From: Pelagibacteraceae bacterium AG-390-O04
GTDB taxonomy: Bacteria > Pseudomonadota > Alphaproteobacteria > Pelagibacterales > Pelagibacteraceae
Reading direction: 5' to 3'
DNA length: 64,000 bases
Assembly (NCBI GenBank): GCA_003278065.1
Contig: QCHE01000003.1
Location: forward strand, 19,412 to 83,411
The notes under the pieces were generated by a model. The model did not search any database, had not been told where the DNA came from, and was given only the letters and a program-made list of their open reading frames with translations. The position numbers and the translations under genes were made by a program. Of the stretch, positions 37,100-44,513 are shown one piece after another (position 1 is the stretch's first letter; each line of letters starts with the position of its first letter).

Positions 37100-38353
37100 T
37101 TAATGCGCAACCGCTGCAGCACCGTGCTCATCTACTAGGTCGCCACTTACAAATCTATTAATATTAAATGCTGCGTTAAGTTTGTGGGGTTCATCATTTG
37201 CTATAGTATGTGCGAATAAATCTCCAGAGCCTGGTGTTGCTTTAAACCCTCCAGTACCCCATCCACAATTAAAGTACAAACCCTTAATAGAAGTTTTGCT
37301 AATTATTGGGCTCGCATCAGGACATATGTCAACTATACCACCCCATTGTCGTAGCATTCTCATTCTACTAAATATAGGATATAATTCTAAGATAGCATTC
37401 AATGTTCCTTCTACAATGTCATGACTTCCTTTTTGAGAATAAGATACATAGTCATCTGTTCCAGCTCCAATAACCAACTCACCTTTATCTGATTGACTAA
37501 CATAAGCATGAACAGCATTTGACATTACTACTGTGTCTATAATTGGTTTTACAGGTTCAGATACCAAAGCTTGTAAGGGTTTACTTTCAAGAGGTAATTT
37601 TAGTCCTGCCATATTAGCAATTACACTTGAATGTCCTGCTGCCACGACACCAATTTTATTTGTTTTAATAAATCCTCTTGTAGTTTCAATACCTTCTACA
37701 GTATCTCCATTTCTTTTTATACTTTTAACCTCACAGTTTTGAATAATATCAACACCCATTTTATCTGCACCTCTTGCATATCCCCATGCAACTGCATCGT
37801 GTCTGGCAGTTCCTGCTCTACGTTGAAGGGTACCTCCTAACACAGGATAACGTATACTCTGGGAGGTATTAATAATCGGACAAAATTTTTTAACTTGATC
37901 TGTATTTAGATAGACAGCATCTATACCATTCAATCTATTAGCATGAGTTCTTCTTTTTAAATCTCTTACATCTTGTAAGTTATGAGCTAGGTTCATTACA
38001 CCTCTTTGACTAAACATAACATTGTAATTTAATTCTTGAGATAAACCTTCCCAAATTTTTAAAGCATGATCATATAGTCCAGCACTTGCGTCCCATAAAT
38101 AATTAGACCTTATTATAGTGGTGTTTCTTCCTGTATTACCTCCTCCTATCCAACCTTTTTCAACTACAGCAATATTATTCATTTGATGTTTTTTTGCTAA
38201 ATAATATGCTGTTGCTAAGCCATGTCCACCACCACCAATTATTATGGCATCATATTCCTTTTTTGGTTGAGGATCTTTCCATGCTTTCTCCCAGTTTTCA
38301 TGGTAAGAAAATGCATTTTTAATTAAACTAAAAATAGAGTACTTTTTATTCAT
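37100..38353 (-). CDS. soxB: Sarcosine oxidase beta subunit
   Basis: [43 protein letters not shown]. Confidence 0.96.
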
Positions 38354-38428
38354 TATAACTTATAAAAATGTTACTAATTAAACATTCAGATAATAATAAA
38401 CAAGCTAAAAAATTCAATAACTAGATCA

Positions 38429-40453
38429 GTGGATACAATAAATAGCAAATTAGACGCAGGTTCATCATACTATAAATTGTTAATTTTTTTACTTTCTTTT
38501 TTTATTATTTCACCACCAGTCAATACTTGGACCAAACTGGTACTATTGAGTTTATCAATAATAATAATTTTTTGGTCAAACTTGAGGAAGAATCAATTTA
38601 ATAATTATTTTTTTATAATACTATTTTTTCTATTATTCATTCCTAAGTCCCTTATTTCAAATTACTCAATAAACATAAATCATATTATTTTACCAACTGT
38701 ATCAAAAGGAAAATATAATTATGTACAGGATAATTTTGATGCTGGGATGAGCATTATATTAAAAAGAGAGTTAAGTGAAATTTTGAAAAAGGAAAAATTA
38801 TTTAAAGGTATTCATCAACCAGGATCAACGTATACTTCAACTTTATATAAAGATTTTGCATTCCAATCTGAAAATATCTGGACAGATTTAGAAGAAGGAA
38901 AAAAAATTATAATAAATAAGAAATTTAATTTTTGGGATTTAGGACCTTCAGCTCTTAATGATCGTAATCTAAATTTTGGAGATACTAAGAAAAAAAATTA
39001 TGGTACGAATCTTATATTTCCTGTGCTCTTTAAATTAGATCTGCCAAAATCGAGTAAAGGGTCTAATTTATGTTTTAAAGGAAATATTATTTATAAAGAT
39101 AAAAAAGAATATAAGATTTCAAAAAATTTTGAAAAAAAATGTTTATTAGTTGAGGAAAATATAACTTTCTACTTTCTTGATTATGATAGAAAGCTTGAAT
39201 TAGAAATTAAAAAAAATTTTCTATATGATAATATTAAGATTATTTTTTATACAATAATTTTAATACAGTTATCGATTATATTTTATATATTCATTGATTT
39301 AAGATCTATAAATAGATTTTATATTTTTTTAAATTTAGCATTTTATTTAGTATTAATACTTTATTTTAAATATGGTCTTAATGCAGTCTCTGGATACTCA
39401 GAAACTATTTACTTTAAACGAGGTTTAGACGGTATGGCTCACTACGGCTATGCAAGAATAATTCTAACAAATTTTTTTACGGGAAATTTTTGGGAAGCTT
39501 TTAAAGGTGTAGAAAATACTTTTTATTATATGCCTCTATTAAGATATACAAACTCTGTTTCGATGATTTTTTTTGGCGAAACAATTTTAGGCTCTATTTT
39601 AATAATTTCTTTATTTAGTATTTTGATTTATAAGTTTTTAAATTTAATAATTGATAAAAAATTATCTAAGATACTTTCCATAGTATTTCTATTAATTCCA
39701 ATATTTGAAGCATTAGGTTTTACCATAATTAACTATATAGGTTTTACGGTAGATGGTTATGGAGAAGGATTGGCTTATTTTTTTCTTTTATTATCTGTTT
39801 ATTTATTTTTACTTAATAATAAAACAAATTTACATTATTTTATAATTGGATTTTCTTCTTTTCTTATAATTGGCTTAAGACCTAATTATTTAGTTTTTTC
39901 ATTTTCTTTAATGTTTTTTTATTCAATTTATTTGATTTATTTGCATAATTTTCATCAAAGGATCTATGACTTAAAATTAAAATTATTTTTAATGCTTTTT
40001 GGGTCTTCTTTTTTCTTTTTATTTTTAATTCATAATTTTATTTATTCGAATGAATTTGTTTTTTTAGTGGAGAGAGGAAATATAGATAATTCTCAAAAAA
40101 TAAAAATTTCTGATTATTTACTACTTTTTAAATCCATTTTTAGTGAAAATTTTCAATTAGATCTTCTAAAAAAAATTTATCACCATTTTAGAAATTATAT
40201 AAAACTTTACGAGTTTTGGTTTATTTTGACATTAATTAATCTGATAGTAGTTTTGTTTTCTAAATTTGATATTAAATTTAGAATCTTGTCTTTATCTTTA
40301 TTGTTAATGCATGGTACTTTTTTATTATTTTTAGGAACTCCAAGATACTCAATGGGAACATGGCTTATTTCTTTTCTTGTTTTTATTTATGCGTTTAATA
40401 CTTTTTACCTTCCTTATTTAAAAGCAAAATTTTTTCTGAAAAACAATAAATAA
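38429..40453 (+). CDS. Large polytopic membrane protein with ~190-aa extracytoplasmic domain; GT-C glycosyltransferase-like (GTG start)
   Basis: 674 aa, many hydrophobic helices; soluble block around residues 90-270; motif FKRGLDGMAHYGYARIILTNFFTGNFWEAFKGVENTFYYMPLLRYTNSVSMIFFGET suggests GT-C type. Confidence 0.55.
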   Translation: MDTINSKLDAGSSYYKLLIFLLSFFIISPPVNTWTKLVLLSLSIIIIFWSNLRKNQFNNYFFIILFFLLFIPKSLISNYSININHIILPTVSKGKYNYVQDNFDAGMSIILKRELSEILKKEKLFKGIHQPGSTYTSTLYKDFAFQSENIWTDLEEGKKIIINKKFNFWDLGPSALNDRNLNFGDTKKKNYGTNLIFPVLFKLDLPKSSKGSNLCFKGNIIYKDKKEYKISKNFEKKCLLVEENITFYFLDYDRKLELEIKKNFLYDNIKIIFYTIILIQLSIIFYIFIDLRSINRFYIFLNLAFYLVLILYFKYGLNAVSGYSETIYFKRGLDGMAHYGYARIILTNFFTGNFWEAFKGVENTFYYMPLLRYTNSVSMIFFGETILGSILIISLFSILIYKFLNLIIDKKLSKILSIVFLLIPIFEALGFTIINYIGFTVDGYGEGLAYFFLLLSVYLFLLNNKTNLHYFIIGFSSFLIIGLRPNYLVFSFSLMFFYSIYLIYLHNFHQRIYDLKLKLFLMLFGSSFFFLFLIHNFIYSNEFVFLVERGNIDNSQKIKISDYLLLFKSIFSENFQLDLLKKIYHHFRNYIKLYEFWFILTLINLIVVLFSKFDIKFRILSLSLLLMHGTFLLFLGTPRYSMGTWLISFLVFIYAFNTFYLPYLKAKFFLKNNK

Positions 40454-41120
40454 GAGTAAAAATATATTTAGATCTAAGCTCGTTAATCTTAAAATTTGAA
40501 ACTCCATATTTTCGTCCATACCAATTAATAGGTATAACCTTGTATTTAAAATTTCTATTTATAATTTTCAAAGGAAGTTCTAAAAAAACATTAAAACTTT
40601 CAGATATTATTGGTTCTAAATCAGTTAGGATATCTCTTTTGTAAATTTTAAAAGCATTAGTAAAGTCATTGTATTTATTCAAATATAGTAAGCTTACAAA
40701 ATAATTAAAAACTCTATTCAATATCATTTTAATTTTTGGATATCCATTTATTTTGGAGTCTTTAGTGAATCTTGATCCAAACACTGCATCAAGATTTTCA
40801 TTATAAATTGTATCGAAATAAATTTTAAGATCATTTAAATCATCAGCGCCATCACACATTAAAATAGTTAAAAATTTACCTTTGGCGTTCTTAATTCCAT
40901 TTCTTACTGTTTCCCCTAAGCCTTGTTTTTGATTATCAAAGACTCTTATTTTACTATTAGATAATTCTTTTTTTTTAAGTAATTCTAAACTTCCATCTTT
41001 ACTAAAATCATTAACAAATAGAATTTCATAATTGATTTTAATCACATCATCTATTTTTTGAATAATAGACTCGATATTATTTATTTCATTTTTGACTGGA
41101 ATTAATATTGTTAAATCCAT
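40395..41120 (-). CDS. Family 2 glycosyltransferase, DPM1/polyprenyl-phosphate sugar transferase-like
   Basis: LTILIPVKNEINNIESIIQKI; FVNDFSKDGSLELLKKK; QKQGLGETVRNGIKNAKGKFLTILMCDGADD. Confidence 0.87.
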   Translation of the reverse strand: MDLTILIPVKNEINNIESIIQKIDDVIKINYEILFVNDFSKDGSLELLKKKELSNSKIRVFDNQKQGLGETVRNGIKNAKGKFLTILMCDGADDLNDLKIYFDTIYNENLDAVFGSRFTKDSKINGYPKIKMILNRVFNYFVSLLYLNKYNDFTNAFKIYKRDILTDLEPIISESFNVFLELPLKIINRNFKYKVIPINWYGRKYGVSNFKINELRSKYIFTLIYCFSEKILLLNKEGKKY

Positions 41121-41133
41121 ATAATCTTTATTT

Positions 41134-42171
41134 ATGCATATATTAATACCTGGTGGATGCGGTTTTATTGGTTCTTCTATAGCTATCTACCTAAAGCAAA
41201 ATATTAAAAATTGTACTGTAACATCAATAGATAATTTATCAAGAAATACATCTTATTTAAATCAAAAAAGACTTAAAAAACATAAAATTAAAAATATTAA
41301 TTTAAATCTTTCATCATCAGATTGTCTTACTAAATTAAATCTAAAAAAAAAGATTGATTTAATTATTGATTGTTGTGCTGAACCTTCTGTTGAATTATCA
41401 AAAACTAGACCTAATTTAGTTTTTAATTCTAATTTAAAATCTACTTTAAATTTATTAGAAATTGCTAAAAAAAAAAAATCTAAAATTATCTATCTTTCTA
41501 CATCTAGAGTTTATTCTATAAGACAAATTAATAGTTTATTTAAAAAAATTAATTTTAATAAAAAATTACCAAGAAAAGTTAAAATTAATGAAAATTTTTC
41601 AGTCGAGTCTCCAATATCACTTTATGGATTTACAAAATTGAGTTCAGAAATATTGATTAAAGAATATTCTTTTTTATATGGTATTAAATATATAATTAAT
41701 AGATGTGGTGTTATTTCTGGTTATGGGCAATTTGGCAAACAAGATCAAGGTTTTTTAAGTATGTGGTTATGGAGACATTTGAATAAAATAAAAATAGATT
41801 ACCAGGGATTTGGAGGATTTGGTCATCAAATAAGAGATGTATTAGATATAAAGGATTTATGTTATTTGATTAAAGAGCAAATATCAAAAATTAATAAAAT
41901 TAATAATCAAACTTTTAATGTAGGTGGTAGCACTAATAATTCGATCTCTTTAGTTGAGTTAACAAATTATTCAATATTTGCAACATCAAATAAAACAAAG
42001 ATAAAAAAAAATTTAAAAACGTCAAACTATGACTTACGTTATTATATCACGGACAATAAAAAAGTTTATTCTAAATATAAATGGCGTGTTAAAAAAGGGA
42101 TTAATTTGATAATAAAAGAAACACTCCAAAGTTTGATAGAAAACAAAAAATATTTATATAAAATTTTATAA
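41134..42171 (+). CDS. NAD-dependent epimerase/dehydratase, CDP-paratose 2-epimerase-like
   Basis: GGCGFIGSSIAIYL; YLSTSRVYS; SLYGFTKLSSEILIKEYSFLYGIKYIINRCGVISGYGQFGKQDQGFLSMWLWRH. Confidence 0.82.
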   Translation: MHILIPGGCGFIGSSIAIYLKQNIKNCTVTSIDNLSRNTSYLNQKRLKKHKIKNINLNLSSSDCLTKLNLKKKIDLIIDCCAEPSVELSKTRPNLVFNSNLKSTLNLLEIAKKKKSKIIYLSTSRVYSIRQINSLFKKINFNKKLPRKVKINENFSVESPISLYGFTKLSSEILIKEYSFLYGIKYIINRCGVISGYGQFGKQDQGFLSMWLWRHLNKIKIDYQGFGGFGHQIRDVLDIKDLCYLIKEQISKINKINNQTFNVGGSTNNSISLVELTNYSIFATSNKTKIKKNLKTSNYDLRYYITDNKKVYSKYKWRVKKGINLIIKETLQSLIENKKYLYKIL

Positions 42172-42209: not shown

Positions 42210-42301
42210 GGAAGAGTGGGTGAGAGGCTTAAACCAGTCGTTTGCTAAATGACCGTGCGAGGAAACTTGTACCGAGGGTTCGAATCCCTCCTCTTCCGCC
42301 A
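42210..42301 (+). tRNA. tRNA-Ser (anticodon GCT), 3' CCA encoded
   Basis: Acceptor GGAAGAG/CTCTTCC; anticodon stem GTCGT/ATGAC with loop TTGCTAA; long variable arm; T-loop GGTTCGAATCC; ends GCCA. Confidence 0.96.
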
Positions 42302-42305
42302 TTAT

Positions 42306-44513
42306 TTAATATAATGGATTATTTTTGAAAAAATCTCTCATTGGAATAGGCTTTTGCTCTAATATATATCTATAAACATTATAATTTTCTAAAACTCTTT
42401 GTACATAATTTCGAGTTTCTTTAAATTTTATTAATTCAATCCAATCTATATAATCTATTTGTTTCTTTTGAGGGTTTTTATTTATTTTTTTCCAATATTT
42501 AACTCTCTTAGGTCCAGCATTGTATGCTGCTATTGCAAATGGGTAGGCACCTTCGTATTCAAGAATTAATCCAGCAATATAATGAGAACCTAAATTTATA
42601 TTATATTCAGGATCAGTTGTTAATCTTGACTTGGAATAAGGAAGTTTTGCTTGCTTAGCTACGAGTTTAGCCGTGTAAGGCATTAGTTGCATTAGACCTT
42701 TAGCACCCGCGTGACTATTGGCACTTAAATCAAATTCACTCTCTTGTCTGATAATCGATAAAATAAATGCGCTCTCAGGTATTTTTCTTCCATTAATATA
42801 TTTGGGAGTACTAATAATTGGATAATTATATTTATTATGAAATCTTTTTTGATATGAAGCAATTTTAGAAATCTGAATAGCAAAATCAAATCTTTCTATG
42901 TTTGATGCAAGTTCAGCAGCTAACATTTCACTACCATTACTAATATTATCGTTCGCTAAATGTCTTAATATGTGTTTGGTATATTTATCTTCATCAAGTT
43001 CATCTAATAAATAAATTAATTTCACAATCTCTTTTTTAAAAAAATAATTACGATACTCTTTTGTAATATCCATATCTTTTGTAAGCTCAAAATTTCCATT
43101 TTGATTTAATTCCATAAAAGCTAATTGCCCATAATAAGTTGTTAGGTATTTAGAAGCTTTCTTAAACCATTCGTTTGCTAATTCTTGATCGTTTAACTTT
43201 TTATATGATCTTCCTAACCAATAAGCACCACGTGCAACACTTATAGGATAGCCAACATTATTATAAAATTTTTCAAAATGATCTTTTGCTAATAAAGGAT
43301 CATTTAAAAAACTTAAAGCAATCCAACCACTCATCCATTCAGCTGCAGCAAATTCAGGACCATCAGTCATCCCATGATTACTTGATATTTTATAAGCTAA
43401 CTCATATTTTTTTTTATATATTAGTGATCTAGATATAATTTCTCTTTCAACCCACCATTTGTCTGGTCTAACTAAATAATCTTTTGTATTTTTAATTTTT
43501 AATAAAATTTCTACAGAGCTATCGACTCTTCCTCTCTTTCGTCTCCATTTTAATCTATCATAATTTAAACCAGCATCATTTTTAAATTTTGCAGGAACTT
43601 TCGATATTGCATTATCAACCCCATAGGATTTGCTCATTAACAACTGTCTTGCTGTATATAAAAGTTCGTAATCTTTAGGTAAATATCTCAGTAATCTCTT
43701 TAAATCCCAATATTTATTATTCCATGCAAGATAATCGGCTCTTTTTATATAATCATCAATTTTAAGAAATTTCTTATATTTTTTTCTATAAAATTTTAAC
43801 TCACTTTTTGATAACTCAGCAGTTATCCAACCTTCTTTAATTAATTTAATACCTTTCTCATTATTTCCATTCAAGATATAACTTTCACCAAGAATCATTT
43901 TTCCATAACCACTTAAAGGCTCTGATGGACCAAACCAACTTATAATTTTTTTTGGTGAAATATCATTAGTTGAAAGTTTATGTTCTGCTAAATATTTAAT
44001 TCTGTTTATTCTTGGGTAGTTTTCATTTTTATCTATAAATATTTTGTAATCATAATAAGAAGCTTTATTTCCTTTAGTTAAGAGGTGCCTCCATTGTATA
44101 AAATTATATATTGATTTGTCCTTAGCTTTTTTAGCAGTTTTAATTGCACCTTGCCAATTAGCCTTTTTCATTTCTGAAATCGCTTTCTTTGCAAGATTAA
44201 AATCTTTTTTATTATAATATCGTGAAATTTTGATTTCAGATTTTTTTTCAGTTCCAGCTATATATGGTTTTTTCTTAGGCAATATTAATCCACCATTCTT
44301 TTTTTTCTTGGTGATACTTTTTTCTTGAATTTCTTTTATTTCAGTTTTTTTAATTGGTTTTGGAAGTGGTTTTAAAACATCTTTTAGTAATTTTTTTTCA
44401 GTTTCCTCTGCTGTTTGACCAGGTTTTTTAAGTGGAATTATATCAGCAAAAGCAAATCCAAAAAAAACTGATAAGTTTAATAAAAGTATAAAAAATAAGA
44501 TTTTTTTAATCAT
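42306..44513 (-). CDS. slt: Soluble lytic murein transglycosylase (Slt70-like)
   Basis: SLT motif RQESEFDLSANSHAGAKGLMQLMPYTAKLVA; AIAAYNAGPKRVKYW. Confidence 0.93.
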   Translation of the reverse strand: MIKKILFFILLLNLSVFFGFAFADIIPLKKPGQTAEETEKKLLKDVLKPLPKPIKKTEIKEIQEKSITKKKKNGGLILPKKKPYIAGTEKKSEIKISRYYNKKDFNLAKKAISEMKKANWQGAIKTAKKAKDKSIYNFIQWRHLLTKGNKASYYDYKIFIDKNENYPRINRIKYLAEHKLSTNDISPKKIISWFGPSEPLSGYGKMILGESYILNGNNEKGIKLIKEGWITAELSKSELKFYRKKYKKFLKIDDYIKRADYLAWNNKYWDLKRLLRYLPKDYELLYTARQLLMSKSYGVDNAISKVPAKFKNDAGLNYDRLKWRRKRGRVDSSVEILLKIKNTKDYLVRPDKWWVEREIISRSLIYKKKYELAYKISSNHGMTDGPEFAAAEWMSGWIALSFLNDPLLAKDHFEKFYNNVGYPISVARGAYWLGRSYKKLNDQELANEWFKKASKYLTTYYGQLAFMELNQNGNFELTKDMDITKEYRNYFFKKEIVKLIYLLDELDEDKYTKHILRHLANDNISNGSEMLAAELASNIERFDFAIQISKIASYQKRFHNKYNYPIISTPKYINGRKIPESAFILSIIRQESEFDLSANSHAGAKGLMQLMPYTAKLVAKQAKLPYSKSRLTTDPEYNINLGSHYIAGLILEYEGAYPFAIAAYNAGPKRVKYWKKINKNPQKKQIDYIDWIELIKFKETRNYVQRVLENYNVYRYILEQKPIPMRDFFKNNPLY

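Follow-up and report, generated by a model that had tools for sequence, protein, structure and literature searches.

Whether three adjoining genes of alternating orientation can serve a single glycosylation pathway, and by what route they came to share one interval, are questions raised by a block lying between soxB and the tRNA-Ser(GCT) gene of Pelagibacteraceae bacterium AG-390-O04. The window analysed here is a stretch of 64,000 nucleotides from contig 3 (QCHE01000003.1) of that genome, a fragmented assembly that is 88.6% complete; in the named genome collection its relatives are genomes of uncultured Pelagibacteraceae (SAR11). The block encodes a polytopic membrane protein (P1), a family-2 glycosyltransferase (GT2) and a short-chain dehydrogenase/reductase (SDR1). 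Few cells in the ocean are as abundant as SAR11 bacteria, whose surface sugars likely decide which phages infect them. A preliminary description of the block, drawn from the sequence, had proposed that SDR1 makes a nucleotide sugar which GT2 loads on polyprenyl phosphate and P1 transfers outside the cytoplasmic membrane, and had suggested that the block is accessory.

By comparing the site across related genomes and the proteins with families and solved structures, we arrive at the reading, to which we assign a probability of about 0.72, that the block is a horizontally variable periplasmic glycosylation module resembling three-component systems, with P1 as its GT-C-type enzyme. What is new is the combination of genes and an uncurated protein family; the kind of pathway is already known.

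Variable occupancy of the tRNA-Ser(GCT) site

With soxB and a lytic transglycosylase-like gene as anchors, the intervening gap was read in 110 distinct genomes of the same genus; sites broken by contig ends were left out, so that the filled fraction may be underestimated. In 104 of these genomes the interval between soxB and tRNA-Ser(GCT) is an empty stretch of about 65 bp, and in six it is filled. Besides the window, the filled gaps are those of AG-905-P17, containing P1, GT2, SDR1 and a second dehydrogenase/reductase gene (SDR2); AG-426-K09 (G103), containing P1 only; and three further genomes, with a PMT-like protein (G056), a methyltransferase (G029) and a 6.7-kb CDP-sugar module (G229). 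A conserved spacer element (TCAATACAATC type, one mismatch allowed) occurs in 104/104 empty sites and in 0/6 filled sites, from which it follows that filling replaces the spacer. In a tree of the transglycosylase the window falls within a clade of 16 genomes of which the rest are empty, and G060, sister to AG-905-P17, has no cargo on the soxB side; gain, loss or exchange at this position is therefore recurrent. The suggestion of an accessory block is borne out by this synteny: there is good evidence that the block is horizontally variable, the 104 empty relatives being incompatible with uniform conservation.

The gap between the tRNA and transglycosylase genes is filled in nine genomes, and insertions thus lie on either side of the tRNA in different relatives. 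Cargo ranges from 0.8 to 6.7 kb, most genomes being empty. One CDP-sugar module is shared by G229 and G331, lying 5' of tRNA-Ser in one and 3' in the other (L203:1320-7935; L235), and comprises genes for a glucose-1-phosphate cytidylyltransferase, a CDP-glucose 4,6-dehydratase, an ArnC/PgfS-like GT2, a C-methyltransferase and an SDR, together with a small protein and a GT-C-like polytopic protein. Between tRNA-Ser and the transglycosylase gene of G150 (L230:1206-5638) lie genes for a UDP-galactopyranose mutase, a GalE-like SDR, a polyprenyl-phosphate-type GT2 and a PMT-like GT-C protein, a candidate galactofuranose side-chain module. These three cargoes indicate that a polyprenyl-phosphate GT2 is repeatedly paired at the site with a GT-C-like polytopic protein, the sequences being unrelated. 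The surroundings of tRNA-Ser(GCT) in Pelagibacteraceae are a hotspot whose surface-sugar genes differ from one filled genome to another.

Scattered insertions to either side of a tRNA gene could also reflect a classical mobile island, in which an integrase-borne element had integrated at tRNA-Ser, an explanation that concerns the arrival of the block and not its function. Inspection revealed no integrase among the open reading frames (ORFs) of the block and no duplicated tRNA fragment of at least 12 nt, and on these two grounds an integrase/att origin was rejected. Since the cargo of the window lies 5' of the tRNA and the spacer has been replaced in 6/6 filled sites, allele replacement through recombination in the flanks fits better than an integrase, and we regard the mobile island as highly improbable.

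Two further features of the site were recorded. The cargo located 3' of the same tRNA-Ser in G019 (L110:6343-9981) consists of asparagine-synthase-like, NTP-transferase and thiamine pyrophosphate-enzyme (phosphonopyruvate-decarboxylase-like) genes. In AG-426-K09 the transglycosylase gene beside the P1-only site (L149:7083-9279) is broken into reading frames of 499 and 169 aa, either through mutation or through an error of assembly.

Conservation of the three genes as a set

The block of AG-905-P17 has the gene order, orientations and nearly the spacing of the window, with SDR2 added directly after SDR1, and its full-length orthologues are 49% (P1), 66% (GT2) and 73% (SDR1) identical to those of the window. 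Ratios of nonsynonymous to synonymous substitution between the two are 0.29, 0.12 and 0.12, respectively, with synonymous sites near saturation, as in the flanks. By these comparisons, each of the three is a genuine gene maintained by purifying selection. Elsewhere, GT2, SDR1 and SDR2 are co-directional in G003 and G022 and are rearranged in G043, where GT2 is cut by a contig end; GT2 and SDR1 of these three genomes are 49-56% identical to those of the window. In these three genomes (L118, L119, L121) a second uncurated polytopic family, of about 600 aa and bearing the motif D-x-YH-x-GQR, is encoded divergently from or beside the GT2-SDR1-SDR2 genes. A relationship of this family to P1, raised by BLAST with composition correction off, was discarded as hydrophobic noise (profile comparison by hhalign, 0.3%). 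Two of the three cassettes also include an Ldh2-type dehydrogenase.

Alternatively, the genes might share a cargo hotspot without being related in function, P1 using other donors and GT2 with SDR1 deriving from a different sugar pathway. Such a view would accommodate the P1 of AG-426-K09, the association of GT2, SDR1 and SDR2 in G003, G022 and G043 with a polytopic protein unlike P1, and the alternating orientation of the block, which is no operon. It is countered by the identical architecture of AG-905-P17 at 49-73% identity, by an independent GT2-SDR-P1 run in an unrelated alphaproteobacterium (G612), and by the fact that GT2 and the SDRs of G003, G022 and G043 likewise accompany a polytopic protein; we consider it unlikely. 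The functional linkage proposed earlier thus draws support from AG-905-P17 and G612, but in the looser sense that the three genes are not an obligate trio, and the proposed pathway is upheld with the amendment that SDR2, the usual partner of SDR1, here lies in trans.

P1 family and predicted fold

No Pfam or NCBIfam family matched P1 at E<=1, no sequence match was found in the PDB, and the P1 homologue of G103 had no Pfam match. Searches of genome, viral, phage and plasmid collections with the single protein and with peptide patterns also gave no match. Relatives were first reached by a search of 200 relatives with core fragments, followed by profile searches. A single-sequence search identified P1 in only 2 of 399 genomes of the genus, AG-905-P17 being added by profile, and a three-sequence profile applied to 337 genomes retrieved it from eight other alphaproteobacterial families (E 2e-70 to 2e-11); a phylum-wide profile search returned no members beyond those already found. 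The P1 family therefore appears, on these searches, to be undescribed in protein-family databases while spanning several alphaproteobacterial lineages.

An AlphaFold (AF2) model computed from two sequences reached a pLDDT of only 39.8; the model used instead, from ten sequences, had a pLDDT of 76.9 and a pTM of 0.81. The predicted layout consists of N-terminal transmembrane helices, a soluble beta domain (approximately residues 199-261) and then a GT-C-like module. When this model was compared by Foldseek with the PDB, all polytopic proteins among the 50 best matches were GT-C enzymes (AglB, ArnT, STT3, PglB, AftB and PMT), with probabilities of 0.95-1.00 and E-values of 0.02-0.3, and the modelled soluble domain resembled cupin-type beta barrels. 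The expectation of a GT-C fold in the 674-aa protein is consistent with this result, although the support is moderate because of those E-values and low TM-scores. Invariant residues of the P1 alignment are Asp334, Arg372-Tyr373, Arg484, His535-Asn536 and Arg639. Asp334 (codon 39428-39430), retained in 10/10 homologues, is placed by the model at the N-terminus of the helix following the transmembrane segment 296-315; by analogy this would be the position of the catalytic Asp of GT-C enzymes, in the first extracytoplasmic loop of the core, making it a candidate catalytic residue.

Gene neighbours of P1 homologues

Pfam and NCBIfam served to annotate the neighbours of the distant P1 homologues. 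In four genomes (G661, G780, G530 and G597) P1 adjoins UbiA proteins whose best scores were to the decaprenyl-phosphate phosphoribosyltransferase model or a related UbiA family model; most scored near but below the equivalog cut-off, and the G597 neighbour, a HAD-UbiA fusion, passes NF006088. A phosphoribosyl pyrophosphate synthase gene also lies near the homologue of G780. GT2 adjoins P1 in the window, in AG-905-P17, in G612 and in G685, the last as a GT2-WecB-P1 run, and the homologue of G642 adjoins an SDR and an ArnF-like flippase subunit; the neighbours of the eighth, in G578, were uninformative. Seven of eight distant homologues thus adjoin makers or flippases of polyprenyl-phosphate sugars (phosphoribosyltransferase type, four; GT2, two; ArnF-like, one), as do nine of the 11 known P1 loci. 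This strong evidence from neighbours, joined to the moderate evidence from the fold, makes P1 a probable GT-C enzyme with polyprenyl-phosphate sugars as donors, its putative use of a lipid-linked donor being supported by the 9/11 loci.

P1 could instead be a surface-polysaccharide protein of a different type (a Wzy-like polymerase, for instance, or a ligase or flippase) that acts on a lipid-linked oligosaccharide and not on a polyprenyl-phosphate monosaccharide. The lack of a sequence family match and the weak Foldseek E-values would allow this, and the best structural matches include the oligosaccharyltransferases AglB, STT3 and PglB; nevertheless, no Wzy or ligase structure ranks above the GT-C matches, and the seven informative neighbourhoods contain single-sugar polyprenyl-phosphate donor genes or their flippase. 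We attach only a small chance to it.

Predicted properties of GT2, SDR1 and SDR2

GT2 (PF00535, E=5e-21) has dolichol-phosphate mannose synthase as its best solved relative (5mlz, E=1.5e-12, residues 2-211), and hydropathy predicts no transmembrane helix; it is a candidate DPM1-like polyprenyl-phosphate-sugar synthase.

SDR1 (PF01370, E=4e-30) most closely resembles, among solved structures, CDP-tyvelose 2-epimerase, alias CDP-paratose 2-epimerase (9rl0/1orr, E about 1e-27). Like TaTyvE (9RL0) and 1ORR it keeps the NAD motif, with GxxGxxG represented by GGCGFIG (residues 7-13), and the catalytic Ser/Thr, Tyr and Lys, with the Ser/Thr segment STSR (122-125) and YxxxK as YGFTK (164-168), so that the SDR catalytic triad is present. 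It differs in the two substrate segments, TNK and VAM, which are highly conserved in TyvE-like enzymes and whose residue roles have been described (PMC13098431): proteins of the SDR1 type have TSR or SSR where TNK is expected (TSR in SDR1 itself) and PSV or AAV where VAM is expected. The substrate of CDP-tyvelose epimerase is therefore not to be assumed, and the sugar on which SDR1 acts may be either nucleotide-bound or lipid-linked.

A second difference from TaTyvE is that most genomes pair SDR1 with SDR2, which adjoins it in all other SDR1 genomes seen (G003, G022, G033, G043, G049 and AG-905-P17); in the window genome SDR2 lies on another contig (G000:C5; 52-56% identical). SDR2 has an intact TNK segment, but Phe occupies the position of the catalytic Tyr164 in all ten copies examined (L157, L118-L122, L133, L123, L124, L016). 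These complementary active-site motifs suggested an obligate SDR1-SDR2 heteromer, but with SDR2-type genes occurring without detected SDR1 in G025, G046 and G058 this is no more than a possibility.

Proposed pathway and comparison with known systems

Direct observation covers the genes and the way they are conserved together, the unoccupied sites, and the P1 family with its neighbours; every catalytic step, along with donor, acceptor and transfer direction, is inferred, the model being three-component systems. In this scheme an unusual sugar would come from SDR1 acting with SDR2, probably through C-2-type epimerisation of a nucleotide sugar; GT2 would load it onto polyprenyl phosphate at the cytoplasmic face; a putative flippase would invert the lipid-linked sugar; and P1, with Asp334 as catalytic residue in the first periplasmic loop of its GT-C core, would transfer the sugar to a surface glycan or protein.

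Several results weigh against this pathway. Foldseek gave no P1 match at E<0.001, with TM-scores of 0.2-0.4, and direct homology of P1 to the SAR11 PMT-like GT-C proteins found no support, profile-profile comparison being not significant (13%). GT2 has no canonical DxD, its residues 89-94 reading CDGADD versus the archaeal DAD motif (CDLSDD at this position in G003, G022 and G043). G103 carries P1 without GT2 or SDR at the site, and none of its three GT2 matches has P0002 size. No flippase gene is present among the ORFs of the block, and no GtrA flippase was found in the window genome assembly (0/6 genomes), SMR and MATE types not having been searched genome-wide. No promoter or terminator in the block was distinguishable from the background of shuffled sequence.

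Three-component systems work in sequence: a synthase makes the polyprenyl-phosphate sugar, a flippase follows and a GT-C enzyme acts last, the sugar being diversified by an SDR epimerase; in Citrobacter youngae O1/O2, pentofuranose side chains are attached by PPPRS, a MATE flippase and a GT136 GT-C enzyme, with the ORF13 SDR epimerase (PMC11127046). Likewise, the variable block described here encodes a sugar-lipid maker, a GT-C-like polytopic enzyme and, as an auxiliary, an SDR, and several P1 homologues adjoin UbiA-type phosphoribosyltransferases like that of the Citrobacter pathway. It differs in having a DPM1-like GT2 as lipid loader in place of a UbiA-type phosphoribosyltransferase, in lacking a flippase, and in a CDP-tyvelose-epimerase-like SDR; the likeness of P1 to GT136 (Citrobacter ORF12) is one of gene layout. 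The logic of a GT2 polyprenyl-phosphate-hexose synthase followed by a GT-C transferase is shared with GtrA-GtrB-Gtr O-antigen glucosylation, from which the present case departs in the lack of GtrA, in a GT2 with no predicted membrane anchor, and in the added SDR.

Knowledge of variable surface-sugar regions in SAR11 centres on hypervariable region 2 (HVR2; PMC2217521, PMC7318151), which spans 48 kb and separates the 23S from the 5S rRNA gene (PMC2217521). Both there and here variable surface-sugar cargo lies between conserved genes; the present site is far shorter, mostly empty, and placed around tRNA-Ser by sarcosine oxidase genes. In the literature searched, coverage of which is incomplete, we found no account of the soxB/tRNA-Ser site or of the P1 family. 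A site that is mostly empty and otherwise holds alternative sugar-attachment modules offers a unit of surface variation that is small and open to testing, in contrast to HVR2, and a single biochemical assay of P1 could be enough to define a new enzyme family and to give many hypothetical proteins an annotation. More tentatively, and at slightly less than even odds, P1 may found a new GT-C family with a jelly-roll-like periplasmic domain before the core, swapping UbiA-type pentose and GT2/SDR donor makers across Alphaproteobacteria, and the soxB/tRNA-Ser/transglycosylase site may act as a "serotype" locus exchanging whole modules, possibly driven by phages.

Gene layout and composition of the block

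Three intact genes were confirmed between the sox operon and tRNA-Ser(GCT), in the positions and alternating orientations first reported (Table 1). The label "sox operon" is retained with a clarification: soxB belongs to the sarcosine oxidase operon soxBDA and not to sulfur oxidation.

Table 1. Features of the block and its borders, in window coordinates
Feature	Position	Strand	Basis
soxB, sarcosine oxidase beta subunit, conserved left border	37100..38353	-	tblastn and synteny in relatives
Left junction, conserved soxB-tRNA spacer element (TCAATACAATC type) missing	38354..38428	none	spacer comparison
P1, polytopic GT-C-like protein, 674 aa	38429..40453	+	profile, AF2 model, Foldseek, invariant residues
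GT2, candidate DPM1-like polyprenyl-phosphate-sugar synthase, 241 aa	40395..41120	-	PF00535, PDB match 5mlz, hydropathy
SDR1, CDP-tyvelose (paratose) 2-epimerase-like, 345 aa	41134..42171	+	PF01370, PDB matches, motifs
tRNA-Ser(GCT), intact	42210..42301	+	ARAGORN, site survey in relatives
Lytic transglycosylase-like gene, conserved right border	42306..44513	-	synteny in relatives

P1 and GT2 are convergent and overlap by 59 bp, and 13 bp separate the start codons of GT2 and SDR1; P1 begins with GTG, a start choice that is uncertain. The GC content of the block (0.219, versus 0.277 for the window) is the lowest of any 3.7-kb stretch in the window.

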